Positions 1 through 45,869 of a stretch of DNA of 64,000 bases are shown piece by piece. Position 1 is the stretch's first letter, and every line of letters begins with the position of its first letter. Position numbers and translations under genes: made by a program. Below the pieces are notes generated by a model. The model was not told the DNA's origin and made no database searches. It saw nothing but the letters and a program-made list of their open reading frames with translations. Origin of the DNA: Tetrahymena thermophila SB210 (lineage: Eukaryota; Ciliophora; Oligohymenophorea; Hymenostomatida; Tetrahymenidae); NCBI RefSeq assembly GCF_000189635.1, contig NW_002476361.1:682001-746000 (forward strand). Reading direction: 5' to 3'.

Positions 1-3000
1 GAGTAAACAAAATAAGCTATATTGAAATAGTAAAAATAAAATAGCTTAATCCTGCCATTTAAGCTCAAATAATCCTTAAAGAAATCACAAACATAAAAAA
101 ATAATTCTTATATACTTAACTATTTGAGAATCCAAGTTAACTTTAAAATATAATCTAAGATTTAGAATAAAATCAAAATATTAATAGCTACTTATAATTT
201 AATAGTTTTTACTCTTAGTTTCAATATAGCTGTAGAAATTTTAATTAAGGTAATTAATTACTACAAATAAAAGAAAATGATACTCCTATTGATTTTACAT
301 AAGCTGATTTTTAAAAAGTATAATAATTACTTGGTGATGAAAGTACAAATGTTGATTAAACTAAAATGATGCCTAATAGAATTGAATATGAAGATTAGAA
401 TTGCTAATCAGATGAAAGTAATAGGCTGACCTTAAACTAACTCAGAGAATAAAATTCATTATAAAAGTTGAATGAAAAACTGCAACTTAATTATCTGTTT
501 TAGCTTCAAAGAAATATTGTATAAGAGCAAGCACTTAATTAGTCAATTTAGGAAAACTAAATAAGCTACAACGATTTATAAATTGTAAATTATGGTAATT
601 TTAATTTGAGTCTTTAAAATTTTTAAGATGATTAGATAAACAAAAACAGCGATTGTGCCTAAAGATCAAATAGAGCAATAAATATAGAATTAATTTCTCC
701 AAATAATAGCTTCTGCATGAATATTAATTCTAATCAAATATCTTTAGCTCAGTTATCTGATTAGAATTTCAACATATAACAAATAAATTCACATCAATTT
801 ATTGGAAATTAAACTAAAGAAAATATTAGTTTAGATGTAGAAACTAATAATTGTGAAATAAATAAAAAATGTAATAATACTATCCTTCCTTTAAAAATGA
901 ACATAAACCCTAGCAAAATCGCTAAATCTAGTAGTTTTAGAAAAAGTAAAATCAACAATACATTAACTAATGCACTAAATGATAGAGAAAGAAAATAATT
1001 AATTAAAAACTCATATTAACATAATCATGCTAATTAGCTTTATAAAGATAAAAATATTAAAAAGTAGTAAGTTCAAGATATTATTTATGATATTGCTTCA
1101 AGCAACTCTCAAAATTCATATTATACTCCAGTCAAGAGACAATTATAAGATGTTATGGCAGACCAATCAACCTTATAAGTAATAAAATTAATAAAAATTA
1201 TTGGAGTTATTTGCTTCACTGTCATGGTATCGATCACTTGGTTATAATTTAGCTCAATGTATCAGTATCTGTCAGAAGCTAATTAAGACTACCAAGATTT
1301 TGGTTGGCCCACTGATTATTCTTCTTCTCTAAGTGATATCCTTAAATATAAAAATATTTAATATCTTACAAATTATAGAAACTTAAATTTCACAGACAAC
1401 AGCTAGTAGCAACTTTTTAAAAATAAAATACAATAAGATATGGAGGATACTTTCTCAGACGTATAAAGTTTATTAAATTAAGTAGATTTAGCCAACACAA
1501 AAAGAGATATATTTAACAGAGTAATAGACTATAAAATTACTTTTTACTTTGGGTAATTGTATGATACAACAATGCTTAGCTCAACTGCGTCTGACAATTC
1601 TGATTTAATCACTTTAAATTATAGTTCTACCTTACATTATAGTTTTCTTTTAAATGTTCAAGTTATCTACCGTTATATTAAGAACTTAGGTAATGGAAGG
1701 CCTGAGTATTACTTAATATAAAATTAATTAGAATCAGTTTCTTAATTAAAAAAATTACAAGACGATATAAAAGAAAACCAATCAGGATAATAGCAATACA
1801 TTCAAGATTAGCTCTAAATTATAATCATAATTTTAGTTTTAATTAACACATGTTGTGTTATGATCATAATACCATTATATTTTTATATTTAAAAAGAAAG
1901 AGACTCTATAATTTACCTATTTACTACATTTCCGATTTAAAAGTTAGATATTTTGATCTAAAAAATATAAAATTCCTACTTTAGCACAAACACTAGCTCA
2001 ATTTATTAGAATTAAAATAACAAAATAGTTTTAGATACAATTGCATAATTATAAAGTATCGAGAATGAAAAAAATATCAGAAAGCATAGTATTAGTTCCA
2101 TCACGAGTCTCCCTAGATATAATAAAAAATTGTTTTTTGCTAGCTTTCTTATTTATTCATTAATAATATGTCAACCGATAATTGTTAAAATCTTATCCCT
2201 GAATTATTTAACTAAATCTGCTCTAGATCTTTAAACAATGTGTAATTAATTAAAAATAATTTAATATTTAAATATTTAAACAAAATATACATTATATTTA
2301 TTTATTCTCTTTCTTTATAATATTATTTATTTATTTATTTATAATAATTTTAAAAGCGAAAGTCTAATAGCTAAGATCATATCTATTGTAGAATATTGCA
2401 TTGCATTTTAATGTTTTAGCTATGAAGGTAGATCCAAGTCTCAAACCTATGTAGCCTGAAATTTATTATGATTATTTATAAAAACTCATTTAAGAATAAG
2501 GAGATATAAGTAAGGATATCTAATGGATAATAAATTCATAGTATTCCGATTAAAGGTATTTTATTTTATTTAAATCTATGATATATAATTAAAATTTATG
2601 TATTTTGATCAGTTTTTTATCTTAATTTTTTGACTTTATTTGAATATTAAAATATATTTATTTAAATAGATTTAACTAAGACTTATACGATAACTTCTTT
2701 TTTTCTGCTTTTAAAACCAATTTGTGCGAAGATTTTAAGAATTATCCTTAGTTCAATACTAATCCTAAAAAGATAAATATTGATCTATGTGCTTCACCGC
2801 AATAAAAATTCTTATAGTAAGGCTTCTAAGTAGCTTACAAAAGTCTTTTTAACTTGTTTACTGATCTTTACAACGCATATTAAATAAAAGATCAGTAATA
2901 ATTCCTTGATTAAGCAAGATAAATATTAGGAAATATTGATATTTAGGAATTTACTGCTTTTTCAGAGTTTTTGGATGAAACAATTATTAGTTTAACTGAA

Positions 3001-3240
3001 TTTGTTTTAACGTAAAACAACATTTATTATAATCAGATATAATTATAATTGATTGCTCTGATAGCTTTTTAAATGGTATTAATGCTTTTAATCTTCTTTT
3101 TTGGTTGGATTACTTTCAGTGAATATTTGAATGACTAGCTACACAAAACAAAAAGGTATCTAAAAATTATAGACGCTAATACTTTACTTGAAAATCAATA
3201 TATATAAAATTATATTAAAAAAAATATTGTTGTTTAATGA
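1..3240 (+). CDS. TmcB-like PAS/transmembrane protein, copy 0 (5' part outside window)
   Basis: This is the C-terminal 1002 residues of the first array member. Frame 3 of the window is open from base 1 under the ciliate code, with introns at 2242-2356 and 2556-2669 and a TGA stop at 3238-3240. By alignment with copy 1, about 978 N-terminal residues (first membrane block, helical repeats, PAS domains) lie upstream of the window. Visible parts are the end of the cytoplasmic region, a long Gln/Asn/Ser linker, a membrane segment near 1185-1255, an exposed loop with the conserved word GNGRPEYYL, two further membrane segments, and a last membrane segment around 3045-3120 followed by a short tail. 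No frame break was seen. It is closest to copies 1 and 2. Membership in the TmcB/TmcC family is inferred from the paralogues. Confidence 0.8.
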
Positions 3241-5594: not shown

Positions 5595-8500
5595 ATGAAT
5601 CAAGAAAGAAACAAATAACTTAAATTTGCAGATTTGTTAAAGCTCTATTATACTGAGGAAATATATAGATTGGTTCACTTATTTCCTAGAAATAATCCTG
5701 CTTTTTAAATATTAATAATATTAAAATACTTGCTATTATTTTAATTTTCTCTGTCAACTCAATTTTAAGAAACAACAGATTATAATTCTAAAATAAATTT
5801 CATCGTTCAGTTTGGAGTATTTAATTTTTTAAAGAATGATAAATTCATTGATAGTCTTATTTACGTCTTGCTATTTATAAATGGAGTGCTATTGATATAT
5901 ATGATTTTTGGTCTTTTTAGATTCATGTACTGGAAATTTAGGATAATAAACAAGCTGAAAAATAATTTTCAATATGAAATTTAATTGTAATTAGAAGAGT
6001 TTATAAATGAAAAAAGCAGCTGCTTAGACTAATTTTTTTCATTGATGATTACTTTTTAACAGTATTTAATTCACTTTCCAAGTATTCTTTTAGGCTTTAA
6101 TAATTTAAATAACAACAGTGTCTCTTATGCTCTTTTGTCTATTGCTATTTTAATAAGTAACTTAATAATCAATAAATTATTCTTTATTAATTTAATTCAA
6201 ATACCAATTTCACTATATAAAAAGAACAAATTTTTTGCATTTTACTTTCAATTATTAATTAATTTAATAACATGTTTGTTTTTTTAATTTACTAAGATTT
6301 GGTCACTTCTGATACAGACTATAATTATGAAATTAAACTTAAGGACTATTTAGCAAAACCTTACACTCTCTAAAATTTTTTATTTAAGTTCTTAGCAGAA
6401 GTTTTTATTATAGCAGCAATAGTTTATACACCAGAAGGCTCAAATTCTATACTATCTTGCTATTTTCTTATAAGTGGGTTATCTTCTCAATTTATCTCTT
6501 ACTTTTATGATAAGTTTTCATAACATATAAACCTGTTTACTCATTTCACCTTATTTTTCATGAGCCTCACTCTCTAAATTTATATCTAATATAATTTTCC
6601 TAGTTAATTGTTAACTTACCTTTTTATGATTTATATACCTTTAAGCTATAAAATAGCTTCTATAATAGTTGAAAGAGACTATTAGAATATGCAAAACAGC
6701 TTTCAATCAGTGCCAGAATAAATATAAAATAATGAGAAAAATTTAGATAGAATTCTAAGATTAAATATTTTTGACAACATTGAGAATTCAAAGCAAAATG
6801 AGAAAAAATATTTTTAATTTTTAAATTTAATTACAAATAATTATTTATCAAACCAAAATAAGTTTATTAGTTCTACTAAAGATACAAACAATCTTAACTA
6901 AAAATTCTAAAATAATTTTTAAATTTATGAAAGTGATTATTTTTAAGAATAAAATAATCAAAAACTCCAATAAAATAGCTAATAAACTAATTTATTTGAA
7001 GACGTTAATAAATTAAAATAGATTGAAAAAAATATAATTAAATTATTGAAAGATTAATTTTTGAAAATTTCAAACGAAAATTTAAGAAGCAAAGATAATA
7101 GAACAAAAATTCTTCGAAGCATTTTTATATTTTTAATAGAAATAAGTGATTCATATAGAATATACTTCCTTAAATATTTATAATTGATAAAAAGTAACAA
7201 TTTGTCTTTAAAGTAGCAATAAATATTTAAATCTATACATAGTATATTTTTAAAAAAGAGAGCTGTAGTAAGAAAGACAATGGGAAAAACCAATCCATTT
7301 GATAGCTCTTACTTACAAGTCATAATTTTTGAAAACAAACTTGAAAAGTCCTATTCCATATTGCGCTAAACTATTAATTTAAAATTATAAATACTAAGCA
7401 TGATGAAACAAAAAAACATAGTTGCTAAGCAGTTAATTACGAAAATTGAAAGTCTGCAAAATTAAATAAATTTATTGAAAGTAAATTTAAATTATTTAAT
7501 TTAATTAAATGATGACAGCTTGGAACTTTTGAATCTGCAAGCACTATTTTTGGAAAACTTGAGCTTTTCTGAAAAAGATATAAATTTACTTCAAATCAAC
7601 AAATACAGAAAAAAAGGCTTAAACTAAAAATATTTAAACAGGTAAAATGAAGATGACATTTTAAGTAGTATGATTAACAGCGATAAATTTGATGAAAAAA
7701 CTTGTATAATTTTTGCAAGTTACAAAGATACTGAAACCTTAACAATAAATCAAGTTTCTTCTAATTTTTCTAATTTATTTTGCTTTACAAGTAGAGACCA
7801 TATCTATGATCGAAATATTGAATCTATTATACCTCTCGTGTTTCAAAGTGTACATAAAATGTATATAAAGTAATATTTAGAAGATTCAATATCATGTGAT
7901 AATTATTCAAATAATACAGATCAGCAATTATTAGAATAAAACGATCAAGATAATGAAAATGGTTAGAATGAGGTAACTCAAGACAATTAAGCCTTAAATT
8001 TTTAATTTAATCGACCAAAATATTTATCAGAGAAATCAACTGGAACAAAAAACTTAAACTAATAATTTGAAAATTGTAAAATGGGTTAGTAGATAATATT
8101 TGCATCTTTAAACTAAATGTTTATCTTACCAATTAAAATTGACATTAGAACAAATGAATACCAAGAGAGCGGAACTTTTGGATTAGTAGCTAAATTAAAA
8201 AAAATAAATGAAGAATACTAATATATTTTATTCAATGAGACAGATCTAAGTGTTATAGGCCTCACTGAATAAGTGCATGAAATATTCTTTCCTAACTGTA
8301 ACAACCTCTAAAAAATTAATTTGAGATAAATTTTCCCCTTTTTGAATGGAACTTAAAATAAAACAAAAGTTGAAGATTCTTATGTTTAAAATAACGAAAC
8401 GATTACCAACATTTCAAATATAAAAAGTTAGTTTCATGCAAATTTAACTGATGATATGCAGTATATCCTTAGAGGATAATCAAAAAATAAATTAAAAATT

Positions 8501-11500
8501 AAAAACAAATTCTCATTTATAGTTATATAGCATTCAGATGAAATAAATAACACATTAAACTCTTCGTTTAACAATATGAAAAGATTAAATAAAGCTAAAT
8601 CATATAAAGAAATTTCATCATATAGTTTTAATTATGTAGAATTATTTGTTAGAAAATTAAAATACAAAGGAGTAAATAATGTGAGCTATGTTGAAATAGT
8701 AAAAATAAGATAACTTAATCCTGCCAAATAAACTCAAATAATTCTTAAAGAAATCACAAAAATGAAAAAATAAAATATTTATTCTTAACTATTTGAGAAT
8801 CCAAATGAGCTATAAAATATAATTTCAGATTTAGAATAAAATTAAAATACTAATAGCTACTTATAATTTAATAGTTTTCATACTTAACTTCAATACAGTT
8901 GCAGAAATTTTAATTATGGTAATTAATTACAACTTATAAAAGAAAATAATACTCCTACAGATTTTGCATAAGTCGATTTTTATAAATAATAATAACAAAT
9001 AAATAAGCAGTAAACTTAAAGTGATGAAAGTACTGACCTTGAATAAATTAAAATGGTGTCAAATAGAATTGAATACGAAGATTTGAGTAGCTAATCCAAT
9101 GGAAGTAGTGGTTTGACTTTAAACCAATTTAATGTATAAAAAGGATTATAAAATTTAAATGAAAAACAGCTCCTTAATTAATTATAGTAGCTGTAAAATA
9201 ATAATATATAAGAACAAACGCTTATTTAGTCAATTTAAGGAAACTAAGTCAGTAACAGTGATTTGTAAATTAAAGCAGATTTTTCTAATAAAAGCTTGAA
9301 TCTTTAGAATCTTTAAGAAGATTAATTAAATAAAAATAGCGATCATGCCTTGCCAAGCCCTATAAAATTAAATAAAACAATAAACATTGAACTAATTTCA
9401 CCAAATAACAGTTATTATATGAATATTAATTCTAATCAATAATCTCTAGCTCAGCTTTCAGATTACAATTTTAACTTTCAACAAATAAAATAACATGAAT
9501 TTATTTAAAATAAAACTTAAGATAATATCTATTTAGATGTAGAAACTAGTAACCGTGAAATTAATAAAAAATAAAATAATATAATCACTCCTTTAAAAAT
9601 TAGTAAAATTCCTAGTAAAATGTTTAAGTCGAAAAGTTTTAGAAAAAATAAAGTCAACAATACATTAATTAATGTTTTGAGTAACAAAGAGAAGAAATAA
9701 TTAATGAAAAGCCCTTATCAACATAATCATACTAATTAGCTATAAAAAGATAAAAATATTATAAAGCAGCATGTTCAAGATATTATTTATGATATTGCTT
9801 CTAGCAACTCTCAAAATTCATATTATACTCCAGTGAAGAGATAATTATAACATATTATGGAAGATTAGTCAACTCAAAAAGTAATAAAACTAATAAAAAT
9901 TATAGGCATTATTTGTTTTAGTATTATGATATGCGTTACCTTTATACAATTTAACTCGATGCAACAGTATTTATCATAAGCTAATTAAGATTACGAAGAT
10001 TTTAGCTGGCCCACAACTTATTCTTCTTCTTTAAGCGACATCCTTAAATATAAAAATATTTAGTTTCTTTTAAATTATACACAGATAAAATTCCCTAACA
10101 GTGACTAAAAGTAACTATTTTATAATCAAATGCAATAAAATATGGAGGATACTTTTTCAGACATATTAAATTTGTTAGCTTAAATGGAATTAGCTAACTC
10201 AAAAAGATAAGTATTTAATAGAATAATAGAAAATAAAATGGTTTTTTATTTTGGGTAATTGTATAACCCATAATAACTTAACTAAACTACATCTGATACA
10301 GATTTAATAACTTTAAATTATACTACTAACTTACAATATAATGTACTTTTAAATGTTTAAAACATTTTCAGATATATTCATAACTTGGGTAATGGAAGAC
10401 CTGAATATTATTTAATACAAAATCAATTATAAGCAATTTCTTAATTGAAACAATTATAACAAGATATAAAAGAAAATTAATCGTAATAATAAGAATACAT
10501 TCTAGATTAGCTCTTAATTATAATCATAATTTTAGTTTTAATTAATACAGGTTGTGTTGCGATCATTATACCTTTATATTATTATATTCAAAAAAAGAGA
10601 GACTCTATAATTTACCTATTTACTACATTTCCAATTTACAAGTTAGATAATTTGATCAAAAAAATTTAAAATTCCTACTTAAGCGCAAATAATAACTCAA
10701 TTTATTAGAATTAAGAGAGCCAAATAATTATAGATACAATTGTTTAATTATAAAGTATCGAGAATGAAAAGAATATCAGGAAATAAAGTATTAGCTCTAT
10801 CACAAATCTGCCTAGATACAATAAAAAATTACTTTTTGCTTGTTTCTTTATTTATGCATTAATTATATGCTATCCGATAATTGTTAAAATATTAACCACT
10901 GATTATTTAACAAAATCTGCTCTAGATCTTTAAACAATATGTAATTAATTAATAATTATAAGCTTTTTTTAATTTTATGCATTCAATTAAAACAAAAAAT
11001 TTAAGATTTTTTAATTATTTAATAAACAAAAATAAAAATTCTATTTTCTTTTTTTATTAAATTAATAATTTAATTTATTATTATTTTTATAGCGAAAGTC
11101 TACTATTTAAGATCATACCTTTTATAGAATATTGCGATGCATTTTAATATTATAGTTATGAAGGTATAACCAGGTCTCAAACCTATGTAGCCTGAAATTT
11201 ATTATGATTATTTATAAACACTAATTTCATAATAGGAAGATATAAGTAAGGATATCTAATGGATAATAAACTCATAGTATTCAGATTAAAGGTATTTTAT
11301 TATATTCAAATCTACATTTTAATATCTTTGTTATTTTAATTAATTAAGTAACATTATTTAATTAAATAAATAAATAGATTTAACTAAAATTTATACGATA
11401 GCTTCTTTTTTTCTGCTTTTAAAACAAACTTGTGTGAAAATTTTAAGAAATATCCTTAGTTCAACACGAATCCTAAAAAAATAAATATTGATTTTTGTGC

Positions 11501-11945
11501 TTCATCACAAGAAAAGCTATTATAATAAGGTTTCTAAGTGGCTTATAAAAATCTTTTTAACATGTTTACTGATCTATACAACACTTATTAAATAACAGAC
11601 AAAAAAATATTAATTGAATAAATCAGATAAATATTAGGAAATTTTGATATTTAGGAATATTCTGCTTTTACTGAGTTTTTGGATGAAACAGTTATTAGTT
11701 TAAATCAATTTATCATAACTTAAAACAATACTTTTTATAATCAGATAAAATTATTATTGATTGCATTGATAGCTTTTTAAATGGCGTTAATGCTTTTAAT
11801 CTTCTTTTTTGGTTGGATTACTTTCAGTAATTATTTGAATGAATAACTTCAAAAAACAAAAAGGTATCTAAAAATTCTTGATGCTAATACTTTAATTGAA
11901 AATCAATACATATAAAATTATATTAAAAAAAATATTGTTGTCTGA
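5595..11945 (+). CDS. TmcB-like PAS/transmembrane protein, copy 1 (1990 aa)
   Basis: Exons are 5595-6156, 6297-10940, 11093-11291 and 11378-11945; they sum to 1991 codons with TGA as stop. The start is the only ATG shared by all copies just before a conserved word (LVHLFPRNNP). Residues about 38-285 carry a block of hydrophobic segments. Residues 290-640 are helical and resemble the repeats of Dictyostelium TmcB/TmcC. A PAS-like domain sits near 650-715, and a second, weaker one (GTFGLVAKLKK onward) near 785-850. A Gln/Asn/Ser linker follows. Membrane segments lie near 1385-1408, 1592-1618, 1699-1720 and 1926-1950, with an exposed loop between the first two. A sensory role at the cell surface or an inner membrane is inference; no enzymatic domain is visible. 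Nothing is truncated. Confidence 0.85.
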
Positions 11946-13821: not shown

Positions 13822-16800
13822 ATGAATCAAAAAAGAAATAAATAATTTAAAGTTGCAGAGTTGCTAAAACTCTATTATACTGAGGAGATATATAGATTGG
13901 TTCACTTGTTTCCTAGAAATAATCCTGCTTTTTAAATATTAATAATATTAAAATACTTGTTATTATTTTAATTTTCTCTTTCAACTCAATTTTAAGATAC
14001 TATGGATTATGACTCTAAAATAAATTTTAAGGTCCACATTGGAGCATTTTAATATTTCAAGAACAAAAAATTCACTAATAGTCTTATTTATGTCTTGCTA
14101 TTTATAAATGGAATACTATTGACATATATGGTGTTTGGGTTTTTTAGATTCGCCTACTTGAAATTTAGGATGATATAAAGGTTGAACAATAATTCTCTTT
14201 AAGAAATTTAGTTGGAATTAGAAGAGTTTATAAATGAAAAAAGCAGCTGCTTAGACTAATTTTTTTCATTGATGATTACTTTTTAACAGTATTTAATTCA
14301 CTTTCCTAGTATTATTTTAGGCTTTAATAACTTAAATAATAATAGTGTCTCATATGCTCTTTTGTCAATTGCAATTTTACTGAGTAACTTAATATTCAAT
14401 AAATTATTCTTAATTAATTATGTTCTTATTTATTTAAATGCCAATTTCAGCATGGAAAAAGAAAATTTTTTACATTTTACTTTCAAATTATTAATTAATT
14501 TAACATATTTTTTTAATTTACAAAAGATATGGTCACCTCTGATACAGATTATAATTATGAAATTAAACTTAAGGACTATTTAGCAAAACCTTTCACTTTC
14601 TCTAATTTTCTATTTAAGTTCTTAGTAGAGATTTTTATTATAGCAGCAATAGTTTATACACCAGAAGGCTAAAACTCTTTACTATCTTGTTATTTTCTTT
14701 TTAGTGGTTTATCTTCTTATTTTTTCTCTTACTTTTATGACAATTTTTCATAACTAATAAACCTGTTTACTCACTTCTCCTTACTTTGCATGAGCCTCAC
14801 TCTATAAATCTATGTCTAATATAACTTTCCTAGTTAATTGTTAAGTTTCCTTTTTATGGTTTACATACCTTTCAGCTATAAAATAGCTTCTATAATAGTT
14901 GAAAAAGATTATTAGAATTAATAAAATAGCTTTCAGGAACTGTATTAAGAAATATAAAATAATGATAAAAACTTTGATAGAATTTTAAGATTAAATATTT
15001 TTGACAATATTGAGAACTCAAAGCAAAATGAGAAAAAATATTTAAAATTTTTGAATTTAATTACTAATAATTAAATATCAAACCCAAATAAGTTTATTAA
15101 TTCTATGAACGATACAAACAATCTTAACTAAAAATTCTAAAACAATTCTTAAATTTATGAAAGTGATCATTCTGAAGGATAAAATTAGCAAAAGCTCCAA
15201 AAAAATAGCTAATAAACTCATTTATTTGAAGATGTTTCTAAATTAAAATGGATTGAAAAAAATATAATGAAATTATTACAAGATTAATTTTTGAAAATTT
15301 CTAACCGAAAATTAAGAAGCAAAGATAATGGAACAAAAATTCTTCAAAGTGTATTTATATTTTTAATAGAAATTAGTGAGTCATATAGAATATATTTCCT
15401 AATGTACTTATAATTGATAAAAAGCAAGAATTTATCAATAAAGCAGTAATAAATAATTAAATCTATACATAGTATATTTTTAAAGAAGAGAGCTGTAATC
15501 AGAAAGAGAATGGGAAAAAAAAATCCATTTGATAGTTCTTACTTACAAGTAATAACTTTTGAAAACAAACTGGAAAAGTCCTATTCCATATTACGCTAAA
15601 CTATTAATTTAAAATTATAAATACTAAGCATGATGAAACAAAAGCATATAGTTGCTACAGAGTTAGTTTCAAAAATTGAAATTATACAAAGTTAAATAAA
15701 TTTATTGAAATATAATTTAAATTATTTAATTTAATTAAATGATGATAGCTTGGAACTTTTGAATCTGCAAGCTCTATTTTTGGAAAATTTGAGCTTTAGC
15801 GAAAAAGATATAAATTTAATTCAAATCAACAAATATAGAAAAAAAGGCTATAACTAAAAATATTTAAACAAGCAAAATTAGGATTTTGACATGTTAAGCA
15901 GTATGGTGAACAGAGATAAATTTGATGAAAAAACATGTATAATTTTTGCAAGTTACAAAGATGCAAAAACCTTAACAATAAATCAAGTTTCTTCTAATTT
16001 TTCTAATTTATTTTGCTTTACAAGCAGAGACCATATCTATGATAAAAATATTGAATCTATTATACCTCTTGCATTTCAGAGTGTACATAAAATGTATATA
16101 AAGTAATATTTAGAAGATTCAATAACATGTGATATTTCTTCAATTAATACAGATCAGCAATTATAATAAAATGAACAAGATAATGAAAATGATTCGAATG
16201 AGGTAACACCAGATAACTAAGCTTAAAATTACTAATTTAACCAATTAAAATATTTATCAGAGAAATAAACTGGCATAAAAAATTAAAACTATGAATTATA
16301 AAATTGTAAAATGAATTAGTAGATAATATTTGCCTCTTTAAACTAAATGTTCATCTTACCTATCAAAATAGACATTAGGACAAATGAATACAAAGAGAAC
16401 GGAACGTTTGGATTAGTAGCTAAAATAAAAAAAATAAATGAAAAATACTAATATATTCTATTTAACGAGACAGATCTAGGTGTTGTAGGCCTCACTAAAT
16501 AAATGCATGAATTATTCTTTCCTAATTTTAATAATCTTTAAAAAATTAATTTGAGATAAATTTTTCCCTTTTTGATTGATACTTAAAATCAAACAAAAAT
16601 TGAAGATTCACAGGTTTAAAATAACGAAAGGATTTGCAATTCTACTAATATAAAAAACTAATTTCATGTAAATCTAACCGATGAGATGCAGTAAATCCTT
16701 AGTGGATAATCAAAAAATAAATTAAAAATTAAAAAAAAATTATCGTTTATAGTTATATAGCACTCAGATGATAAAAACAACACATTAAACTCTTCATGTA

Positions 16801-19800: not shown

Positions 19801-20206
19801 TTACAAAAGTCTTTTTATTAATCTATTTACTGATTTATACAACATATATTAAATAACAGACAAAAATAAATAATTTGAATAAATCAGATAAATATTAGGA
19901 AATTTTGATATTTAGGAATTTACTGATTTTTCTGAGTTTTTGGATGAAACAGTTATTAGTTTAAATCAATTTATTTTAACTTAAAATAATACGTTTTATA
20001 ATCATATAAGATTATTATTGATTGCATTGATAGCTTTTTAAATGGTGTTAATGCTTTTAATCTTCTTTTTGGGTTGGATTACTTTCAGTAATTATATGAA
20101 TGAATAGCTACACAAAACAAAAAGGTATCTAAAAATTCTAGACGCTAATACTTTAATTGAAAATCAATATATATAAAATTATATTAAAAAAAATATTGTT
20201 GTTTGA
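13822..20206 (+). CDS. TmcB-like PAS/transmembrane protein, copy 2 (1988 aa)
   Basis: Exons are 13822-14383, 14527-19161, 19303-19501 and 19636-20206, summing to 1989 codons. The protein is very close to copy 1 from the first residues to the end, with small in-frame gaps only, for example one missing codon near 17620. Domain order is the same: N-terminal membrane block, TmcB-like helical region, PAS-like domain with the word DEKTCIIFASYKD (about 15918), second PAS-like segment, Gln/Asn-rich linker, and four C-terminal membrane segments. The acceptor of the second intron has shifted sequence (AG then AGAAAGTC) but keeps the frame. All indels seen are multiples of three, which argues that this copy is under selection rather than decaying. 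Confidence 0.85.
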
Positions 20207-28700: not shown

Positions 28701-29221
28701 GTAATTTATGTGATAGTTTTAGGAATCATCCTTAATACAACACTAATTCAACAAGAATTAATGTTGAAATGTGCAATTAATCATAATAAGGATTCTTGTC
28801 ATAAGGCCTACAAATAGCTTTTAAAAACCTCTTTAACTCATTTAGCGACTTATATAACTTGTATATGATATAAGACCAATCTGAATAACAATCTTAAATT
28901 TCTAATTTTTTATCTAAATTTGACATTTAAGGTTTCACAGATTTTACTGAATTCATAGATGAAACGATTATTAGCTTGAATTAATTTATATTATTGCAAG
29001 GAAATAATTACTATTAACAAATAAAAATATGGTTGATTGCTTTAATTGGTTTTCAAATTGTTTTGATGGTACTGATTTTTTCTTTTGGATGGAATTCTTT
29101 CACTAACTATTTGAATGGTTAGCTTCATAAAACTAAAAACTATTTACAAATTCTTGATGTTAATACATTAATAGAAAATCCTTATATTTTAACTTATATT
29201 AAAAAAAATACAGTAGTTTGA
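22726..29221 (+). CDS. TmcB-like PAS/transmembrane protein, copy 3 (1974 aa)
   Basis: Exons are 22726-23290, 23442-28034, 28394-28592 and 28654-29221, summing to 1975 codons. The N-terminus repeats the pattern of the family (LVHLFPRNNP near residue 30). The helical TmcB-like region, the PAS-like domain (DEKTCIIFVSYKD, about 24830), the second PAS-like segment and the four C-terminal membrane segments are all present. The C-terminus reads KKNTVV, against KKNIVV in copies 0-2. The second intron (28035-28393) is 359 nt, against 115-153 nt in the other copies, and contains a GC-rich hairpin. The third intron is only 61 nt. The subgroup is shared with copy 4. Function beyond a probable membrane-bound sensor cannot be told. 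Confidence 0.85.
28132..28189. other. GC-rich nested hairpin inside an intron of copy 3
   Basis: Inside an otherwise AT-rich intron, TATCAGG (28132-28138) pairs with CCTGATA (28183-28189). Within it GCGG-ACG-CCGC (28138-28148) forms a tight GC stem, followed by the palindrome GTGCAC. The patch has several CpGs, very rare in this window, and is absent from the same intron of the other copies. It could be an intron-borne small RNA or an insertion; no snoRNA boxes were recognised. Confidence 0.4.
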
Positions 29222-31734: not shown

Positions 31735-34700
31735 ATGAATTAAGAAAAAAAGAAATAAGTTAAATTTTCTGAGCATTTTAAACTCTATTTTACTCAAGAA
31801 GTTTATAGGCTAGTACACTTATTCCCTAGAAATAATCCCACATTTTCATTATTTATTGCTTTAAAATACCTGCTACTATTTTACCTGTCTTTATAAAATA
31901 TCTTTTAAAAAATCACAGAAAATGATTCTCAATATAATTCTTCGAAATCAAATGGATTAATTAATTATTTGCTAAATAACGATTTGATAGATAAATTAAT
32001 CTATGAATTGCTAGCTATAAATTGCATGCTTTTGATCTACATAATATTTACAATCTTTAGATTTATCAACTTGAGATTAAAGTTATCAAACTAAATTCAA
32101 ATGAAATTCAACCCAGACATTCACTCTTAAATTGAGGAAAATTTAAATGAAAACAGCAGTTTTTTAGATTAATCATTTTCGTTAATGATATCAGTTTATT
32201 AGTATATTATTTATATCCCTAGTATTATTTCAAGTTTAAATAACTTAAATAGAAATCCAGCATCTTATGCGCTTTTATCTATTGCAGTCTTACTTAGTAA
32301 AATTTTTAATTAAACTTTTTCTTAATCAGTTTATATTTTATGATATTTGAAATAATACGCAAATAGAATTGTAATTATATTCATATAAACAAATTTTTTT
32401 ATTTCAAATTTATTTATTAATTTAACATAATTTTATTTAATTATTTATAGATATTTTCATTTCTGATACAGACTATAACTATGAAATTAAGGTTAAAGAC
32501 TACTTAGCAAAGCCATTTTCTATCTTAAATTTTTCTTATAAATCAATAGCTGAAATATTTATCTTAGCAGCTATAATTTTTGCACCACAAGGCGAGAGCG
32601 CTATATTATCTTGTTATTTTATTATAAATGGACTTAGTTCGTATTTTTTTGCTTATTTTTATGAAGAGTTTTCATAGCTTATAAACCTATTTACTCACAT
32701 AGCCTTACTTTGCATGAGCTTTACTTTATAAATATGCATTTCTTATAACATTTCTAACTAATTTTTGAGTTATCTCTTTATCATTTAGATACCCTTTAGC
32801 TATAAAATAGCTTCTCTAATTATTGAAAGAGATTATTAAAATTTGATAAATAATTTTCAATAATTGTATAAATAAAAATAAAGTAATGACAAAAACATTG
32901 ATAGAATTATAAGATTAAATATTTTTGGTATCATTGAGAACTCAAAATAAAATGAAAAAAGATATTTAAAATTTCTTAATTTAATATCCAATAGTAACAA
33001 ATCAAAGGAAACAAAACAAATGAATTCTAAAGAAGAGTCGGACTATCTTTATCAAAGTTTTCAAAAGAAAGAATAATTTATTGAATGTAATTACCCTGAA
33101 CAATAAAACGAATAAAAAGATTTATCCAGCCAATAAATTCTTTTGTTTGAAAATGCTTATTAATTAAAATTTATTCAAAAAAAGATAATTTAAATTTTGG
33201 GAGATTCATTAATGAAAACTTCAAGTAACAAATTAGGAAGCAAAGAAAATGGAACATAAAGTCTCCTTAATTTGTTTATCTTTTTAATAGAAATAAGTAA
33301 TTCCCATAGAATGTATTTCCTTAAATTCTTTCAATTAACGAAAAAGAACAAGCTATCGATCAAATAATAGCAGTAATTTAACTCTATTCATTAAATATTC
33401 TTAAAGAAAGTTGCTGTTCTAAGAAAGAGGATGGGAAGAGCTAATCCATTCGATTCCTCTTATTTACAGGTTATAATTTTTGAAAACGAACTTGAAAGAT
33501 CTTATTCTTTATTACACTTCACAATTAATTTAAAATTGCAAATACTAACAATGATGAAATAAAAGGAGATTATTGCTACTGAATTAATTTCGAAAATAGA
33601 AAGTATGCAAAAGTTAATTAATTAATTAAAAGTAAATTTAAATTATTTGATCTAATTGAATGATGATAGCTTTGATCTTTAGAACCTCCAAGCTCTATTT
33701 TTGGAAAATCTGTGCTTTTCAGAAAAAGATATTAATTTAGTCTAAATTAATAAATATGCAAGAAAGTAGACTAAAAATTATAATTTATTTAAGGAAGATG
33801 AAATGTTAAGCAGTATTATTAACAATGATAAATTTGATGAAAATACTTCAGTGATTTTTGTGAGTTACAAAGACTCTAAAAAAATGCTTATAAATCAAGT
33901 TTCCTCAAACTTTTTTAACTTGTTTTCTTTCACAAATAAAGAAAATATAATAGGACGTAGCATTGAATCTATTATACCTTTAGCGTTTTAAGCTGTACAT
34001 AAAAGTTATTTAAAATAATATCTATAAGAAGAGATAACAAGCGATATTTTTTCAAACTATATTGAATATTAAAATTAAGGAATTAATTAAATTAAAGGCA
34101 GCTAATAATAACAAATACATATTAACCAGTAATAAGATATTTAATTTGATAATTTAGAATAATTATCTAAAAAGGAGACAAAAGAAAAAATTTTAATGTA
34201 TTAATCAAGAGGCTGTAAAATGAATCAATAGATTATATTTGCATCTTTAAGTTAAATGTTTGTCTTACCTGTTAGAATAGATATTCGTGTCAACGAGTTT
34301 AAAGAAAATGAAGTTTTTGGTTTAGTGGCTAAAGTTAAATAAATCAACAAAGAATACTAGTACGTTCTTTTTGATGAAACAGATTTAAGTGTTATTGGAC
34401 TCACTGAATAAATGCATAAGACTTTCTTCCCTAGTTGTGAAAATTTATAGAAAATAAATCTAAAATAGATATTTCCATTTTTGATTGGCACTTAAAATAG
34501 TGTAAATCCTTAATCATATATAGACCCAGTTAATAATAATAATAATAATAATATAAAAAATTAACTGCATATAAATTTGAGAGACAATATGTAAGATTTT
34601 CTTTAGGATCAAACAATTAATTAATTTAAAAATAATAACACGATAACTTTTTTAGTCATCTAAAATTCAGATATGATAAATCCTGCTTTAAATTCTTCGT

Positions 34701-37700
34701 TAATGAGTAGTAAAAAGTAATAAAGTATGAAAAAGCTAAATAGATTGAAATCAACAAAAGAAACTTCATCTTATAATTTTATTTATGTTGAGTTTATTCT
34801 GAAAAGATTAAATTATAAAGGAGTTAACAATGTAAGCTATATTGAAATTGTGAAGATGAGATAACTTCATCCTATTTTTTAAGCTCCAATAATTCTTTAA
34901 GAAATTACAAATAAAAGAAAGCAAGATATTTATTCTCAGCTTTTCAGTTTTCCAGAAGAACTTTAAAATATAATATTTGATTTAGAATAAAAAACAATAA
35001 ATTATAATCAGATTAATTTATATGATTCTTAATTAAACTTGACTTCGCGAAATTAAATTAATTAATATTTATTACAAGAGAAAAGTAACATCGATGAATT
35101 AAATAATAATCTTAAAATGTAACAACAACAACTACTTTGTAAGTCATAAACTATCGGAGACGAGAGCACAAATCTAGAGTTAACTAAAATCAAAATAAAT
35201 AAAATTGAGAATAAAAATGTAAGTAGTTAAGATCTTGAATTATGTAGTTAAATATTGAAATAATAATCAATAAAATAAAAATAATAATTTAGAGATTATT
35301 CATAAAATCAATATGGCAAATTAAATAGTAATTTAAACTAGAAAGAACAATTTTAGATTTAAAATATCAATTTATAAAATTAAAAATTTATTACTTCATT
35401 GAAAGAGATATCAAATCTTTTTAATGAAGAAGGTGAAGACCATTTAAACAGAACTAATTTTGCATTTAAAGATATAAGTGTAGATAAAGTGTAAGAAGAT
35501 TAGTAAAATTTAAATAATAACTTTACTTTACTTTCTCCTTGCAGATCAGACAAAGCATTAAATACAGAACTAGTTTCTCCAGTATATAGCAATTATATTC
35601 CTAGCCATTCTCATTTTTCAAACTAAGAGATCAAATATAACGAGTTTAAATCATATTAAACAAAAGAAACTTCTTTATAAGATTTAGATTTTATTAAAAG
35701 TTAGTCAAAATAAATATTTAATCTGACAAGTAATAACTTACAAAAGATTGAAGAAAAAACCTCAATCAATAAATTTATTAATACAAACTATAATAGAACT
35801 CCAAGCAAATTAGCAAATAATAATGTTCTTTCTTAAAAACATTAACATTAATTCAATAGTCAATTTGATTTTGAAAAATAAGGTAAGTTGCATTTCAAAG
35901 ATAAAAATTATAAAAAGAAGCAAATTCAAAATATACAGAATGATATTGCTTCTACCAGTTCTAAAGATTCAAGTTCAGCATCTGCAAAAAGATTGCTTGA
36001 ATAGATTGTGGCAGATAAGTCAGTTCTTTAAGTGATTAAGGTTATTAAAGTCATAGGTATCGTTTGCTTTGCTGTTATGATATTCATGACTTGGTTTTAG
36101 TTTATCTCTATGGAAAAATAACTTTCAAATTCTAATGAAGATTTCAAAGTTTTTAATTGGCCAACTTCTTATTCTTCTTGCTTAAGTGACATTGTTAAAT
36201 ATAAGAATACTTTATATCTTATTCAGTACTCAAAATAGTTGTCTTTTTCAAGTTAACAGTAAAAATAACTCTTTTAAAATAGAATGTAATCAGAACTAGA
36301 GTTTACTTTAGTTGAAGTTTATGATTTATTGTCTTAAATGTCAAAAGAAAACACAGATAGGTAGGTATTTAAATATATAAGAGAAACTCAAAGTTTTTAT
36401 TCTCTTGGATAAATGTATAATACTACACTCTTAACTTCTACTCCATCTGATAAAATTGGAGTTTTTAGCTATCCTCATTACACAAGTTTATTGTCAAGTA
36501 TTTTACTAGGCATTTAGCTAACTTTTCGTTACACACATAATTTAGGTAATGGGAGACCTGAATATTATTTGCTACAAAATCAACTGTAAGCAATTTTAGA
36601 ATTAGAAAAGGTTTAAAATAACATTCTAGTAGATTAATAAAATGATTAATAATATATCCAAGATTAATTAACCATTTTAATCGTGGTTTTAGTCATAATA
36701 AGTGCGGCATGTGTAGCAGTTATTATCCCCTTCTACTTTTACATTCAAAAAGAAAGAGAGGCTATAATATATCTTTTTACTACCTTTCCAATAATAAAGT
36801 TGGACAAATTGATAAAAAATATTTAAAATTCGTATTTTAATTAAAGCGTTTAATCAAAGTATCAAAATTTAAATGATCACTAATTATTAAATTCAATCGT
36901 CTCATTGTAAATTTTAGATAATGATAAAAATATTCGCAAATAAAATATAAGTTCGATCACTAAACTACCTAGATTTAACAAATACTTAATTATAGCCTCC
37001 TTTTTCATTTATTTAATAATGGTATGCTACCCAATTATAATTAAAGTCCTAACATAAGATTACTTGGATAAAACTATCATAGACCTGCAAACTACAAGTA
37101 AATATAAATTTTCTAATTAATTTCAATTATTTGTTGATTAATTTAATATTTTCTAAAATTAAATTTTAATATAAATTAATTTTTTTAGATAAAATTCAAA
37201 TTGTTTAATCTATTTATTTTTTTAATAATTAATATTTTTTATAATTAAAGTGAAAGTTTATAATTTAAGATCATATCTTTTGCAAAATATAGCAATGCAC
37301 TTTAATATTTTAACAATGAAAGTTAATCCTAAACTAAAACCTATGCAGCCAGACACATATTATGATTATTTAAAAACACTGATCAAGCAATAGGAGGATA
37401 TCTTAAATGATATTTAATGGATTACAAAATCTTAATATTAATATTAAAGGTATTTTATTTAATTAAATTATAACTTTTATTTATTTAAAATTTAACAAAA
37501 AGATTTAAGTAAGATGAATATGATGACTTTTTCTTCTCTGCTTTTAAAAGCAATTTATGCGATTCTTTTAAGATTTACCCTCAATATAATACTAATTCAA
37601 CTAGAATTAATGTTGGTATTTGTAATCAATCACAATAAGGATTCTTATCATAAGGCCTTTAAATAGCTTACAAAAGTCTGCTAAACTAATTTATTGACCT

Positions 37701-38070
37701 ATATAACATATATATGATAGTTGACTAATCTTAATAATAATCTTAAATTTCTAATTTTTTATCAAAGTTTGATATTTAAGATTACTTAGCATTTATTGAA
37801 TTTTTAGATGAGGCAATTATCAGTTTGAATAAATTTGTTTTAACATAAGGAAACAATTACTATTTATAAATCAAAATATGGTTGATTGTTTTGATTGCTT
37901 TTCAAATGGTTTTAATGGTCTTGATTTTTTCTTTTGGTTGGATTTCTTTCAGCAATTATTTGAATGGTTAGCTGCATAAAACTAAAAATTATTTAACAAT
38001 TCTTGATGTTAATACTTTAATTGAAAATCCCTATATACTAACTTATATTAAAAAAAACACTGTTGTATGA
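31735..38070 (+). CDS. TmcB-like PAS/transmembrane protein, copy 4 (1991 aa)
   Basis: Exons are 31735-32296, 32451-37097, 37251-37449 and 37503-38070, summing to 1992 codons. It is the nearest relative of copy 3 over the whole length. It has the N-terminal membrane block, the helical TmcB-like region, the PAS-like domain near 33827-34010, and a second PAS-like segment near 34230-34430. The long polar linker contains a run of seven AAT codons (34532-34552). The C-terminal membrane segments enclose the loop with GNGRPEYYLL. The last membrane segment lies near 37880-37950 and the protein ends KKNTVV before TGA. No break or missing part was seen. As with its sisters, a sensor or receptor role is inferred from the PAS-plus-membrane layout, not shown. 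Confidence 0.85.
34532..34552 (+). repeat. AAT trinucleotide run coding for seven Asn
   Basis: Seven AAT codons in a row lie in the frame of copy 4 at a place where the other copies have no such run. The length is likely to vary between strains without breaking the frame. Confidence 0.8.
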
Positions 38071-39350: not shown

Positions 39351-42300
39351 ATGAATAAATAGCAATTCAAAGAAAATTCACTAAAAGAATTAATAAAGTT
39401 GTACTATATAGAGGAAATTCATAGATTAATTCACTTGTTTCCAAGGGATAATCCAATATTTTCGATATTAATAATTGCCAAATACTTAGTCTTGTTCTTT
39501 CTCGCCATTTCAAGTTAGCTTTAGGAAATTGTAGATACTGACTTTAATTTCAGCTTCTTAAAATAATATGAATTAGTTGGATATTTATAAAATCACGAAT
39601 TCATAAATAGATTGATTTTTGTCTTATTAGGCTTTAATGGAATACTAATCACTTACATCATTTTTTCTTTGCTTAGATTCATATCTTAAAAATATAAAAG
39701 TAACAAGCTAAGTTAAATGACTTTTAACCCAGATGCTTAATATTAAATTGAAGAAAATATTTGTGAAAAAAGGAGTTTTATAGATAAATAATTTTCACTG
39801 TTAATAACTATTTACTAAAATATGATTTATTTTCCCAGTTTATTTATGAGTTTAATAAACTTAAGCAATAATATGTCATATTATTTTCTCTTACCAACAG
39901 CAGTAGTACTAAGTAATTCTTTAAAATTTAGTTATAATTTTAATATTCATTTCTAATCATTGATAAATTAGCTATCTTATCTAATTAAGATTTAGAAAAA
40001 ACAAATTTTTGCTTTTACTTTAGATTTTGAATTTTCATTAATAATAATCGGATATATTTTTCTTTTAAATTTAATAGATTTAATAATTTCAGATGTAGAT
40101 TACAATTACGAAATCAAAATAAAAGACTACTTAGCCAGACCTTTTTCAAAAATTTATTTTGCATTTAATTCTTTCCTAGAGATATTTATTATAGTAGCAG
40201 TAGCTTTTACACCTTATGGTAAGAATACAGTATTATCTTGTTATTTTCTTATCAGCGGTCTATGTTCTAACTTTTCATCTAAATTTTATGACAGGTTTTC
40301 ATAGTTTTTAAGCAATTTTGCTCATATTACCTTTTTCGGAATAAGCGTGTTTCTTTAAATTAGTGACGTATTTTGCTTACCCAACAAATTATTGAGCTAT
40401 TTTATTATTATTTATATACCTCTATGCTTTAAAATCGCTTCTCTAATATCTGAATACGATCACTAAAATTTATTAAGTAATTTTTAATAGTTATTTGAAG
40501 AAAGGTAATTTAGCTTAGCCTATATTGACTAAATGTTGAGATTGGATATATTTGACAATAAAGAAAATTAAAAGGAAAATGAAAAACGATATTTAGGATT
40601 TCTTAACTTGATTGTAAACTCTAATTTATCAAAATTTAGTAAGTTGTCAAATTTTAAGACAGATTGTGATTACTTTGATTAAAAATTTTAATAGAACAGC
40701 TCAATTTTTTAATCTGATGATTTTACAGGGAAAAATTTTTAAAAAATCCGAATTGATAGCCAAAAAATTAGATTATTTGAAGATACCACTTAATTAAAAT
40801 TAATTCAGAAGAGAGTGAAACAATTTCTGAGAGATAAATTAGTTAATGCTTTAAATGACAAATTAACATATCAAAAAAATGGATTTGAAAATTTGTAAAA
40901 TTTATTTGTCTATTTAATAGAAATAAGCGAGTCGCATCGAATCTATTTTCTTAAATTCTTGTAATTTATGTAAAGCAGCAATTTTTCTGTCAAGCAAAAG
41001 CAAATATTATAATCTATTCATAGGATATTCTTAAAAAAGAGAGCAATTTTAAGAAATAGAATGGGAAGAGCAAATCCTTTTGATTGCTCGTACTTGTAAG
41101 TAATTATTTTTGAAAACAACCTTGAATAGTCTTATTCTTTATTACATTTGACTGTCAATTAAAAAATATAAATTCTAAATATGATGAAGCAAAAATAAAT
41201 TATAGCAACAGAGCTAATTTCTAAAATAGAAAATATGCAAAAATTAATTAAATAATTGAAAATAAATTTAAATAATTTGATCTTATTGAACGATAATAGC
41301 TTAGATCTATTAAATCTCTAGGCTATGTATTTGGAAAATTTGTGTTTTTCAGAAAAAGACATTAATTTAGTTTAAGTAAATAAATACATACGAAAGAATT
41401 TAAATCAACAGAGTAAGTACTTTAACCTATAAAACGGAGATGATATTATTAGCAATATAATAAATCATGATAAATTTGATGAAAAGACTTGTGTGGTTTT
41501 TGCATCTTATAAAGACTCTAAAACTTTATTAATAAATCAAGTTTCTTCTAATTTTACTAATTTATTTGGTGTTACTAGCAAATCAAGTATTTTAGGTAGA
41601 AGCGTAGACTCTATCATTCCTCTAGCATTTTAGTCTATTCATAAACTTTATTTGAGTCATTATTTAGAAGAAGAAATATCATGCGACTCATATCTAAATT
41701 AAGTATTATAATTATAAGATATAAATATCAATTAAAATCCAAGGGATTTGAAACATTAAGGACCTGCTGAATGGATTAAAAATGAAAAGTTTGTATTGAA
41801 AGAAAATTTATCAAAAATAGAGGATAAATAATAAATTTTAATGTAAAAATCAAGAGGCAGTAAAATGAACTAATAAATAATTTTCGCTTCTTTGAATTAA
41901 ATGTTCATATAACCTGTTAGAATAGACATCCGCACTAATGAATTCAAAGAAAACAAATTGTTTGGGTTAGTGGCTAAGATCAAATAAATTAATTAGCAAT
42001 TTTAATATATTCTCTTTAATGAAACAAATTTAAATGTTATTGGTCTATCTGAATAATTGCATGAAAAATTCTTTCCTCATTGCGATAACCTGCTAAAAAT
42101 AAATTTGAAGCAATTTTTCCCCTTTTTGAATGGAACCTAAGACTTGAAAGGGAGATATGATTAAATTTAACATAATGATTATGATAGAATTATCAACTAT
42201 CATGTAAATATAATTGAGGAAATGAAGGACATTCTTAGAGAATAGACAGAAAATAATTCATATAGAAAAAATAAATTAACTTTCATATTAATCTAACAAT

Positions 42301-45247
42301 CATTTGTGCTAAAAAATAAATTGCTTTCTTCTTAAGATACTAGCAAAAAAGACTTAGATATGTAATAGATAAAACCAATAAATGAATTAAAAGATTATCT
42401 CTTTACTTTTATAGAAATGAATATTTAGGAAGTAGGCTATAAAGGGATAGAAAATATTAGTTATATTGAAGTGACAAAAATTAGAGAGATTAATCCTTTT
42501 CAATCAGCAACTATAATCCTTCAAGAAATAAGAAATAAAAAAAAATAAAATATTTATTCATAGCTATTTAAAAACGCAAATGAATTTTAAAGGATAATAT
42601 TTTTATTAGAATAAAAAGAATTATTTTAAAATTAACTTTAAAATAATTAGGAAATATCAAGTTTATAAATTAGTCAGATAAATTCTAATTTTAATTTTTA
42701 TTAATCTCCAAAAGATAAAGATTGTCGTCTTAATATGCAAAAAAAATAAGATAATTTATAAACAATTGGAGAAGAAGATATAGATATTGAATATTAGTAA
42801 TCGAATAAAATTAAAACCTATGACTCACATGAATACAATAATGAAGATAGTATTTTTAAAAATCATTTCTTAAGAGGAAGGCAGTAATAGTAATAATAAC
42901 AAACATGCACATCTAATAGATTTGTTGAGAACGTCTAAGTTAATATAAACTAATAATTTTAATATTAAAATTTATAAGAAATAAAATTCATACAATCAAT
43001 CTGTGAAATTTAGTAAAATGATTATGAAAAAATAAGTAATTAAGATTTAAATAGCTAAGTGAATTAAAATTTCTTGATTACTTAAAAACTATTAAGTTAG
43101 TCAAGTCTGAAACAAAAATTTGTAAAATATTATTTTATTTTTGATATTTTTATTTTAATTTAATTAATTAACATTTTTTTATTAAAAATATTAAGATTGG
43201 TGATGCTGATGAACTTAAAAGCAAAAAAAACTCTCCTAATGAAGATGCAAACATGTTGAAATTAACCAACGAGTAAAACCATATGAATAATAATTATAGT
43301 TTTCTGTCACCATGCATATCAGACAAAACATCAAACTAAGAGCTCCTTTCTCCTAACTGTATATATATACTTCAAAATTAATAAACTCTTTCTAGCCTAT
43401 CAAACTAAGATTTAAATTTGTAATAAAAAAAATTTTCTTAATAAAGTACACAAAATTTAAGTGATGCTTAGAATATATAAAAATAAATTTTGCTTTCTGA
43501 TTATAACATCAATAGTGAAAAACAAAATTCTTAATTGAAATTTAACTACGATAACATGCATTAATAAAAAAATAATAAAGAAACAATAGATAATAAAAAT
43601 AGCTTTTAACTAAAAAAAGATTAAAAATAATAGTAAAAATAGATTAATAATAATTTTATTAAAGTTCAAAATGGAAATTTTAACTAAAAAGATAAAAATA
43701 ATTATAAGAAGCATATTCAAGAATTATAACAGGAAATTGCCTCAACTACATCTAAAGACTCAAGTGTTGCTTCAACTAAAAGATAGCTCTTTTAGATTAT
43801 GAAAGATAGATCAATTCTTTCAGTAATAAAAATAATCAATATAATTGGAATCATGTGTTTTATTGTGATGGTATGTATAACTTGGATCCAATATTACTAA
43901 ACTACTCAGAATTTATCAAGCGCTAATTAAGATTATCAAGTTTTTGATTGGCCTACAACTTATTCTTCTTCCTTAAGTGATATCCTTAAATATTAAAATA
44001 CAATATATCTTTTAAACAATTCATAATAATTACCATTTACAAACAATCAAGAAAAATAACTTTTTAATAATCAAATAAAATCAAATATGAAGCTTTCCTT
44101 AGCAATAGTATTTAAATTATTATCTCAGATGGAAAGAGCGAACATAGATAGAGAAGTATTCAGTTAATTAAGACAATAAAATATGATTTATTATATAGGG
44201 CAATAATACAACACTTCAATACTAAGCTCTACACCTTCAGTAAGCACCTAATTAGTGGCTGTAAATTATCAAACAAATATGTAATTCAGTGCTATATTAG
44301 GCGCCTAGCATATTTATAGATATGTTAATAATTTGGGAAATGGGAGACCTGAATATTACTTAATAAAAAATCAGCTTGCAGCTATTTCTGAATTATAAAA
44401 TGTTTAAAGCTTAATTCTCATGAAGTAAGAAAATAGATAATTTTATATTCAAGATTAATAAGCGATCTTAATGATTATCTTAATAACTATTAATGCAGCT
44501 TGTGTTGGAGTCATAATTCCACTATACTTTTATATTTAAAAAGAAAGAGACACAATTATTTATCTTTTTTCTACTTTTCCAGTTCATAAATTAGATTTTT
44601 TAATTAAAAAAATATAAAATTCTTACTTCAGTTAGAATTTTCTATCAATGCATTTAAGCAAATGTACATTACTTCATAGAGAAACCATGGCATCACTCCA
44701 AGCTCTAAAAAATCAAAAAGATACTAGAAAATAAAGCATAAGCACTATTACAGCTCTTCCAAAATTTAATAAAAAACTATTTTTTGCAAGTTTTTGCATT
44801 TATTTAGCTGTTATTTGCTATCCTGTGACAATTAAAATTTTAACTGAAGACTACCTAAGTAAAACTACTCTTGATCTTTAGACCATGAGTAATAAATAAA
44901 TAAATAAAATAATTATTTAAAAAATATATTAATTAAATTATAATTTAAGCAAATTTTATTTTTACTTTTTAGGCTAAATTTTACTTTATTATTTTAATAT
45001 AAAAAAGTGAAAGTTTATTATTTAAGATCTTATCTTTTATAAAATATTGCCATGAATTTCAATATTTTAGTGATGAAAATCAATCCATAATTAAAGCCAA
45101 TGACCCCAGATATATATTACAGCTATTTAAAGGATCTTATCTAATAATAATAAAATATAACAGATGATATTCAATGGATAACCAATTCGTAGTATTAAAA
45201 TAAAAGGTATTTAATTATTATAAAAGTATTTAATAATCTAATTAATT

Positions 45248-45286
<39 letters not shown>

Positions 45287-45869
45287 TTTATTATTAAAAA
45301 GATACAATCAACAACTTTACGATAGTTTCTTTTTTCCGACATTTAAAAGCAATATGTGCGATTCTTTTAAGAATAATCCTTAATACAATACTAATTCTAC
45401 CAAAATTGATATTGGTATATGTGCTTCACCAGAATAAGGATTGCTAGAGTAGGGTTTTTAGGTAGCATATTAAAGCCTTTTTAATATATTTACAGACCTT
45501 TATAACATATATACTATAGATGACAATTCTTAATCCCTTTCTTAAATTAAAAAATTCTTAATGAAATTTAAAATATAGAACTTCTTAACTTTTACTGAAT
45601 TCTTAGATGAGACAATTATTAGCTTAAATTAATTTATATTGACTTAAAGCAATTAAAATTATCATTTAATATAGCTTTATTAGGTAATTTTAATTTCTAT
45701 GCAAATGATAATAATGGTGTTAATCTTCATATTTGGGTGGATATCATTCACTAATTATTTAAATAATTAATTGCACCAAACAAAAAAATATCTACAAATA
45801 CTGGACATAAATACTCTAACTGAAAACCAATACATATCAAATTATATCAAAAAATATAGAATTATGTGA
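39351..45869 (+). CDS. TmcB-like PAS/transmembrane protein, copy 5 (2021 aa)
   Basis: Exons are 39351-39912, 40078-43121, 43196-44888, 45008-45206 and 45302-45869, summing to 2022 codons. It is the most diverged member but collinear with the others: N-terminal membrane block, TmcB-like helices, PAS-like domain (DEKTCVVFASYKD, about 41475), second PAS-like segment near 41895, polar linker and C-terminal membrane segments. The 74-nt intron 43122-43195 in the linker is absent from the other copies; without it the frame is lost. The protein ends with KKYRIM instead of KKNIVV, just before a TGA at 45867, and a degenerate second copy of this last exon follows. The gene itself appears complete. Confidence 0.83.
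45248..45286. repeat. Tetranucleotide (ACTT)n microsatellite in the last intron of copy 5
   Basis: About nine or ten tandem ACTT units fill the middle of the 95-nt intron 45207-45301. The homologous introns of the other copies do not have it. Confidence 0.9.

Follow-up and report, generated by a model that had tools for sequence, protein, structure and literature searches.

Six gene copies in the window analysed here, a stretch of 64,000 nucleotides (C176:682001-746000, in a genome of 101 Mb and 445 contigs), belong to a head-to-tail array of 14 that spans 135 kb of contig C176 and in which no copy is clearly broken. We tentatively interpret the array as a set of very large multi-pass sensors that may form a branch remotely sister to the TmcB-like PAS/membrane proteins, a reading to which we would give slightly less than an even chance. 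In its favour we count the 14 copies, their common introns, the dN/dS values, matches to TmcB-derived profiles together with a clean reversed-sequence control, and the position of the oldest copies at the array edges. Against it stand the misses in Pfam, the failure of the profiles to match most copies, low profile-profile probabilities and structure models of low pLDDT.

Extent of the array and gene models

The window is ciliate-like DNA with a GC content of 21.2%, read with code 6, in which TAA and TAG encode Q; the six window copies were modelled under this code with a spliced-alignment script (Table 1). A preliminary description had reported six head-to-tail paralogues of roughly 2,000 residues. 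The six are where it placed them, in code 6, and the five that are complete in the window measure 1,974-1,995 aa, but the array as a whole is larger. Eight more copies (u8 to u1) lie upstream, as found with a profile of the window copies that was run on the reading frames of the window plus 120 kb of upstream and 40 kb of downstream flank. A genome-wide search with exon 2 of c1 returned the same 14 places on C176. A more permissive search found no further copy in the 30 kb before u8; in the 58 kb following c5 and between u7 and u6, the rows returned were no stronger than E 0.01. The copies from u6 to c5 are 12 consecutive genes with 1.3 to 3.2 kb between coding parts, and a 17.7-kb stretch with a 100-N gap separates u7/u8 from them; LRR-like repeats can be seen by eye in this flank (window coordinates -73.8k to -56.2k).

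Table 1. Array copies in the window and parts of copy c1, in window coordinates
Feature	Position	Strand	Exons or basis
Copy c0, 3' part	1..3240	+	exons 1-2241, 2357-2555, 2670-3240; spliced alignment
Copy c1, 1990 aa	5595..11945	+	exons 5595-6156, 6297-10940, 11093-11291, 11378-11945; spliced alignment
Copy c2, 1988 aa	13822..20206	+	exons 13822-14383, 14527-19161, 19303-19501, 19636-20206; spliced alignment
Copy c3, 1974 aa	22726..29221	+	exons 22726-23290, 23442-28034, 28394-28592, 28654-29221; spliced alignment
Copy c4, 1991 aa	31735..38070	+	exons 31735-32296, 32451-37097, 37251-37449, 37503-38070; spliced alignment
Copy c5, 1995 aa	39351..45869	+	exons 39351-39912, 40078-43121, 43274-44888, 45008-45206, 45302-45869; spliced alignment
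c1 N-terminal membrane block, residues 1-312, one intron inside	5595..6670	+	hydropathy, charge bias
c1 helical core, residues 313-640	6671..7654	+	place of TPR_TmcB in TmcB-type proteins; no TPR match
c1 PAS-like region, residues 648-876, variable insert	7676..8362	+	TmcB-type PAS profile at 686-909
c1 predicted outer domain 1, residues 1408-1590	9956..10504	+	between two hydrophobic segments
c1 GNGRPEYYL word	10388..10414	+	inside predicted outer domain 1
c1 predicted outer domain 2, residues 1719-1925, two introns	10889..11747	+	between two hydrophobic segments

The copies are open, as had been described: all six spliced window models run without stop or frameshift to a terminal TGA. Copy c0 begins before the window: its TGA lies at 3238-3240 and its 5' part upstream, and completed with the flank it comprises 1,961 aa, counted to the last residue that aligns. 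The claim of conserved intron places is equally borne out, with three GT..AG introns of phases 1, 1 and 2 that c1 to c5 all carry in identical positions. The last two of these are inside the window in c0 and the first is upstream of it. The second intron of c5, located in the linker, is copy-specific, and further extra introns occur in u6, u7 and u8. The second common intron of c3 (28035-28393) is 359 nt long, as compared with 115-153 nt in c0, c1, c2, c4 and c5, and contains about 200 nt absent from the other copies. We rejected a repeated mobile element as the origin of this insert, of which the genome holds no second copy. A 194-bp unit with two copies 88% alike (window 45678-46062) repeats the end of the last exon of c5 right after its stop.

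Two signs of gene decay did not withstand remodelling. Frameshifts near residue 200 in copies 1-4 were rejected in favour of an intron common to the copies, as seen in a five-copy alignment; they had appeared because the alignment template carried the intron of c5 translated. Similarly, u7 had one frameshift and one stop on the c3 template, but we dropped the reading of it as a pseudogene once it was modelled on u8: a 47-nt intron then accounts for the frameshift and zero stops remain. The u7 model is uncertain in its first nine or so residues and in its linker introns.

The window also contains frames of other kinds. A SET domain frame (59531-60952, minus strand, 5.8e-11) and, on the same strand, a PHD finger frame (62676-63323, 1.1e-6) are together reminiscent of an ATXR5/6 or TXR1-like histone methyltransferase. 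A tyrosine phosphatase frame (55665-56606, plus strand) matches Y_phosphatase3 at 7.5e-5, above the cut-off, and DSPc at 1.3e-5, below it; its hydrophobic start looks signal-peptide-like by eye. LRR-like repeats are visible by eye at 48491-49069 (plus strand), where Pfam at E 0.1 gave no match.

Protein layout and relation to PAS and TmcB-type proteins

Hydropathy profiles of c1, c3 and c5 agree with the earlier description of two membrane blocks flanking a hydrophilic core. Five or six strong segments fall within the first 313 or so residues and four in the C-terminal block, where a first predicted helix precedes an outer domain of some 185 residues, a second is followed by a basic inner segment of some 84, a third by an outer domain of some 207, and the fourth by the tail. 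Positive charges number 10.9-17.8 per 100 in parts assigned to the inside versus 3.6-10.0 in those assigned to the outside, while N-glycosylation sequons are not enriched in the outside-assigned parts and do not separate the two sides. The word GNGRPEYYL, previously called invariant, is exact in four of the six window copies and seven of the 14 overall (c2 has SNGRPEYYL and c3 GNRRPEYYL). At five of its positions (G1554, R1555, E1557, Y1558 and Y1559, numbered as in c1), at least 15 of the 16 rows formed by the 14 copies and two siblings carry the same residue. Two AlphaFold2 models, each from five window sequences, are of low confidence, with a pLDDT of 35.3 in one and of 33.4 in the other, which covers the PAS-like region.

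The copies had been likened to TmcB/TmcC with a PAS-like core. A Pfam scan of the window exons at E up to 1 or 10 returned neither PAS nor TPR_TmcB, NCBIfam and Pfam gave the window copies no direct match, and searches of solved structures with these copies yielded nothing convincing. The preliminary description had named the lack of a significant match as its refuting condition; by that rule the claim that these proteins are TmcB/TmcC fails, while a remote relationship survives, and we rejected filing them directly under either family. The genome does have TmcB-type PAS proteins, since PAS adjoins TPR_TmcB on several contigs: PF25474 (TPR_TmcB) has 21 matches elsewhere in it, some of them parts of one gene, with PAS models matching alongside on C209 and C396 and TIGR00229 also on C13, C397, C276 and C439. 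The domain that follows the helical part in these loci we take to be PAS. PF25474 had no match on C176 and none in 14 control genomes; genome-wide searches with PF13426 and TIGR00229 found nothing on C176, nor did the N-terminal 459 aa of the TmcB-type locus L010 match there.

Small profiles (PAS, TPR, C1, C2 and C3) were built from ten TmcB-type loci of the same genome, C1 representing the third-last hydrophobic segment and its flanks (the C-terminal hairpin) in seven loci, and their E-values were scaled to an assumed 25,000 proteins. The PAS profile matches c1 (8.7e-5), u2 (3.8e-4), c2 (1.5e-3) and u4 (3.3e-3) at residues 680-909 and misses the other 10 of 14 copies. C1 matches u7 (2.6e-4) and u6 (3.0e-3) and misses 12, and TPR, C2 and C3 match none of the 14. 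No reversed copy (0/14) was matched by any of the five profiles. In the reciprocal direction, a profile of the 14 copies matches the PAS of L010 (4e-5 in the TmcB-type set) and, at 0.002 in the same set, a membrane segment that is the last in the protein, a single place that two overlapping loci both contain; with a 16-row profile and scaling these values become 4e-4 and 0.05. Profile-profile probabilities are low, at 35-69% for PAS, 17-19% for C1, 12% for C2 and 0.2% for TPR. Pfam matches nothing in the siblings L035 and L036, and L035 has a sub-threshold match to the PAS S-box model (TIGR00229, 0.015) at the PAS place.

The profile comparison that the preliminary description had proposed thus failed for Pfam PAS and TmcB directly and gave weak matches to the same-genome PAS and C1 profiles. 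Support for the PAS-like core is indirect and consists of a TmcB-derived PAS match at the expected place in four copies; that for the TmcB/TmcC layout is likewise indirect, from a C-terminal segment order that looks alike in L010 by hydropathy and a C1 match in two copies, with none for TPR, C2 or C3. Judged from sequence, the array family and the TmcB-type proteins probably share a remote common descent rather than membership of one family. Further members of the array family occur on C276, C318, C172, C10, C327, C209 and C126, according to a search of the genome that gave at least 39 matches in all, a lower bound as 30 of 97 candidates were scored. Four of these seven contigs (C276, C172, C10 and C209) also carry TPR_TmcB matches, and on C276 the two kinds lie about 40 kb apart.

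History of the copies and selection

The centre of the array is young and its edges are old. Amino-acid identity is 83-90% among u5, u4, u3 and u1 and 82-85% among u2, c1 and c2, and c0 is 73-78% identical to both groups. These eight have dS values of 0.15-0.49; c3 and c4 are 72% identical with a dS of 0.66, and every remaining pair exceeds 1.1. Identity is 49-53% between c5 and the copies from u5 to c4, 53% between u7 and u8, and 34-39% between u6 and all others. The label of a recently expanding array of six therefore errs in number and, given the dS of the eight youngest copies, overstates recency. Copies 0-2 are less than nearly alike (73-82% identity, dS 0.28-0.47). Nor does similarity fall off step by step with position: u2 lies three genes upstream of c1 and is 85% identical to c2, compared with 82% for c1 and c2. 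In a tree of the 14 copies and siblings from C318 and C172, u2 joins c2 despite the intervening u1, c0 and c1, and u6 (position supported at 0.46 only), u7/u8, c5 and c3/c4 fall outside the young group. The identity matrix and the tree used an older u7 model; dN/dS was repeated with the newer one (0.12-0.42, previously 0.14-0.41). A young centre, old copies at both edges and two interleaving young clades are as unequal crossing over would give, and we infer that the pattern fits growth by this process.

Around 70 nt upstream of their ATG, all eight young copies (u5-u1 and c0-c2) have TTTATAAATAT, with TAATTTATT closer to the ATG, whereas the 600 nt upstream of the ATG are 56-63% alike between the two clades or against c0. 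The two elements are a possible core promoter in AT-rich DNA.

The suggestion that the copies are kept by selection is supported because they are open and because dN/dS is 0.12-0.42 in all 91 pairs of the 14 (Nei-Gojobori, code 6), the lowest values belonging to pairs with saturated dS. When the 28 young pairs are pooled, dN/dS is 0.30 in the N-terminal block, 0.25 in the helical core, 0.22 in the PAS region, 0.43 after it, 0.39 in the linker, 0.42 in outer domain 1, 0.29 in the middle segment, 0.34 in outer domain 2 and 0.44 in the last helix and tail. The two predicted outer domains together reach 0.38 versus 0.24 for helical core plus PAS. In 2,000 codon bootstraps, which are a guide only because the pairs share ancestry, the outer-minus-core difference was zero or less in 0.05% both for the two domains together and for outer domain 1 alone; for outer domain 2 alone it was so in 4.6%, which is not clearly above the core. 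The post-PAS part, linker and tail, all assigned to the inside, keep pace with the outer domains in their rate of change, which argues against a simple outer-domain reading. No 40-codon window reaches a dN/dS of 1 and the highest is 0.74; four exceed 0.7, of which two overlap within outer domain 1 and the others lie in outer domain 2 and at 861-900, the end of the PAS region.

Possible roles and comparison with known systems

If the proteins are sensors, the two C-terminal outer domains, each set between two membrane helices, would receive a signal, and movement through the helices would reach the cytoplasmic helical/PAS core. This core may signal via protein partners; we propose protein contacts because no kinase or other output or enzyme domain was found. 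Growth by unequal crossing over could then supply receptors of differing specificity. A specific form that we regard as unlikely is a chemoreceptor repertoire of a single-celled predator, in which 14 full-size receptors on a PAS/membrane plan would combine a conserved signalling core with outer domains that diversify for different ligands, while new copies arise mid-array and older ones survive at the edges. How far specificity matters is at issue in another alternative, in which all copies do the same job and are retained for the amount of product. This dosage function would suit the low dN/dS throughout, the lack of any 40-codon window at or above 1 and the short stretch before the ATG common to the eight young copies. 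Nevertheless, the protein sequences of the young copies diverge by 10-27% and those of the edge copies by more than half, and outer domain 1 evolves faster than the core; we consider mere dosage distinctly improbable.

Other explanations discard the sensor role altogether. Large multi-pass structural, adhesive or transport proteins unrelated to PAS and TmcB would account for window copies that lack a direct Pfam, NCBIfam or solved-structure match, for TmcB-derived profiles that miss most copies and for AlphaFold2 models of low confidence. The profile matches would then have arisen by chance, or by convergence among membrane segments and sequence of biased composition. We consider this explanation rather improbable: PAS and C1 matches occur at the corresponding place and in the corresponding order, none of the reversed copies matches, and the array profile reciprocally finds the PAS of L010. 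A repertoire akin to surface antigens, with one copy expressed at a time, has a precedent in the tandem arrays of ciliate antigens such as the immobilization antigens of Ichthyophthirius (PMC3341644). As described there, however, those antigens have GPI-anchor signals and cysteine-bearing repeats, a layout that differs from that of the array, and our outer domains carry no excess of amino-acid change; we judge this explanation highly improbable.

Returning to the sensor reading, its nearest counterparts are the TmcB-type proteins, whose succession of membrane block, helical part and PAS the array appears to follow; in L010, hydropathy and inspection by eye also reveal two C-terminal pairs of hydrophobic segments around outer parts. 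They differ in that the array has no detected TPR_TmcB and a long insert in its PAS-like region. PAS sensors (PF13426, TIGR00229) resemble the array in the residue pattern at the PAS place, although no window copy has a PAS match above the cut-off. Among the open-licence matches listed, literature searches bearing on the suggested link to sexual development returned no macrocyst or mating paper for tmcB or tiny macrocyst with Dictyostelium, and none on the protein family of the array in ciliates.

As an arrangement of genes, the array is comparable to the LRR genes of Tetrahymena, for which PMC6564038 describes strict head-to-tail clusters, the largest reported with 17 LRR genes. The protein family is another one: the leading domains in that paper are LRR, TPR, WD40, kinase, CNBD, GFR and P-loop, and the term PAS is absent from its main text. 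Few ciliate receptor genes have been identified so far, to go by a 2017 paper whose gene is presented there as the first for a chemorepellent receptor to be described in any protozoan (PMC5497023). Against this background, the 14 copies offer a natural set for asking whether TmcB-like proteins are receptors, and for what, because none is clearly broken, all evolve under purifying selection and outer domain 1 outpaces the core in protein change.
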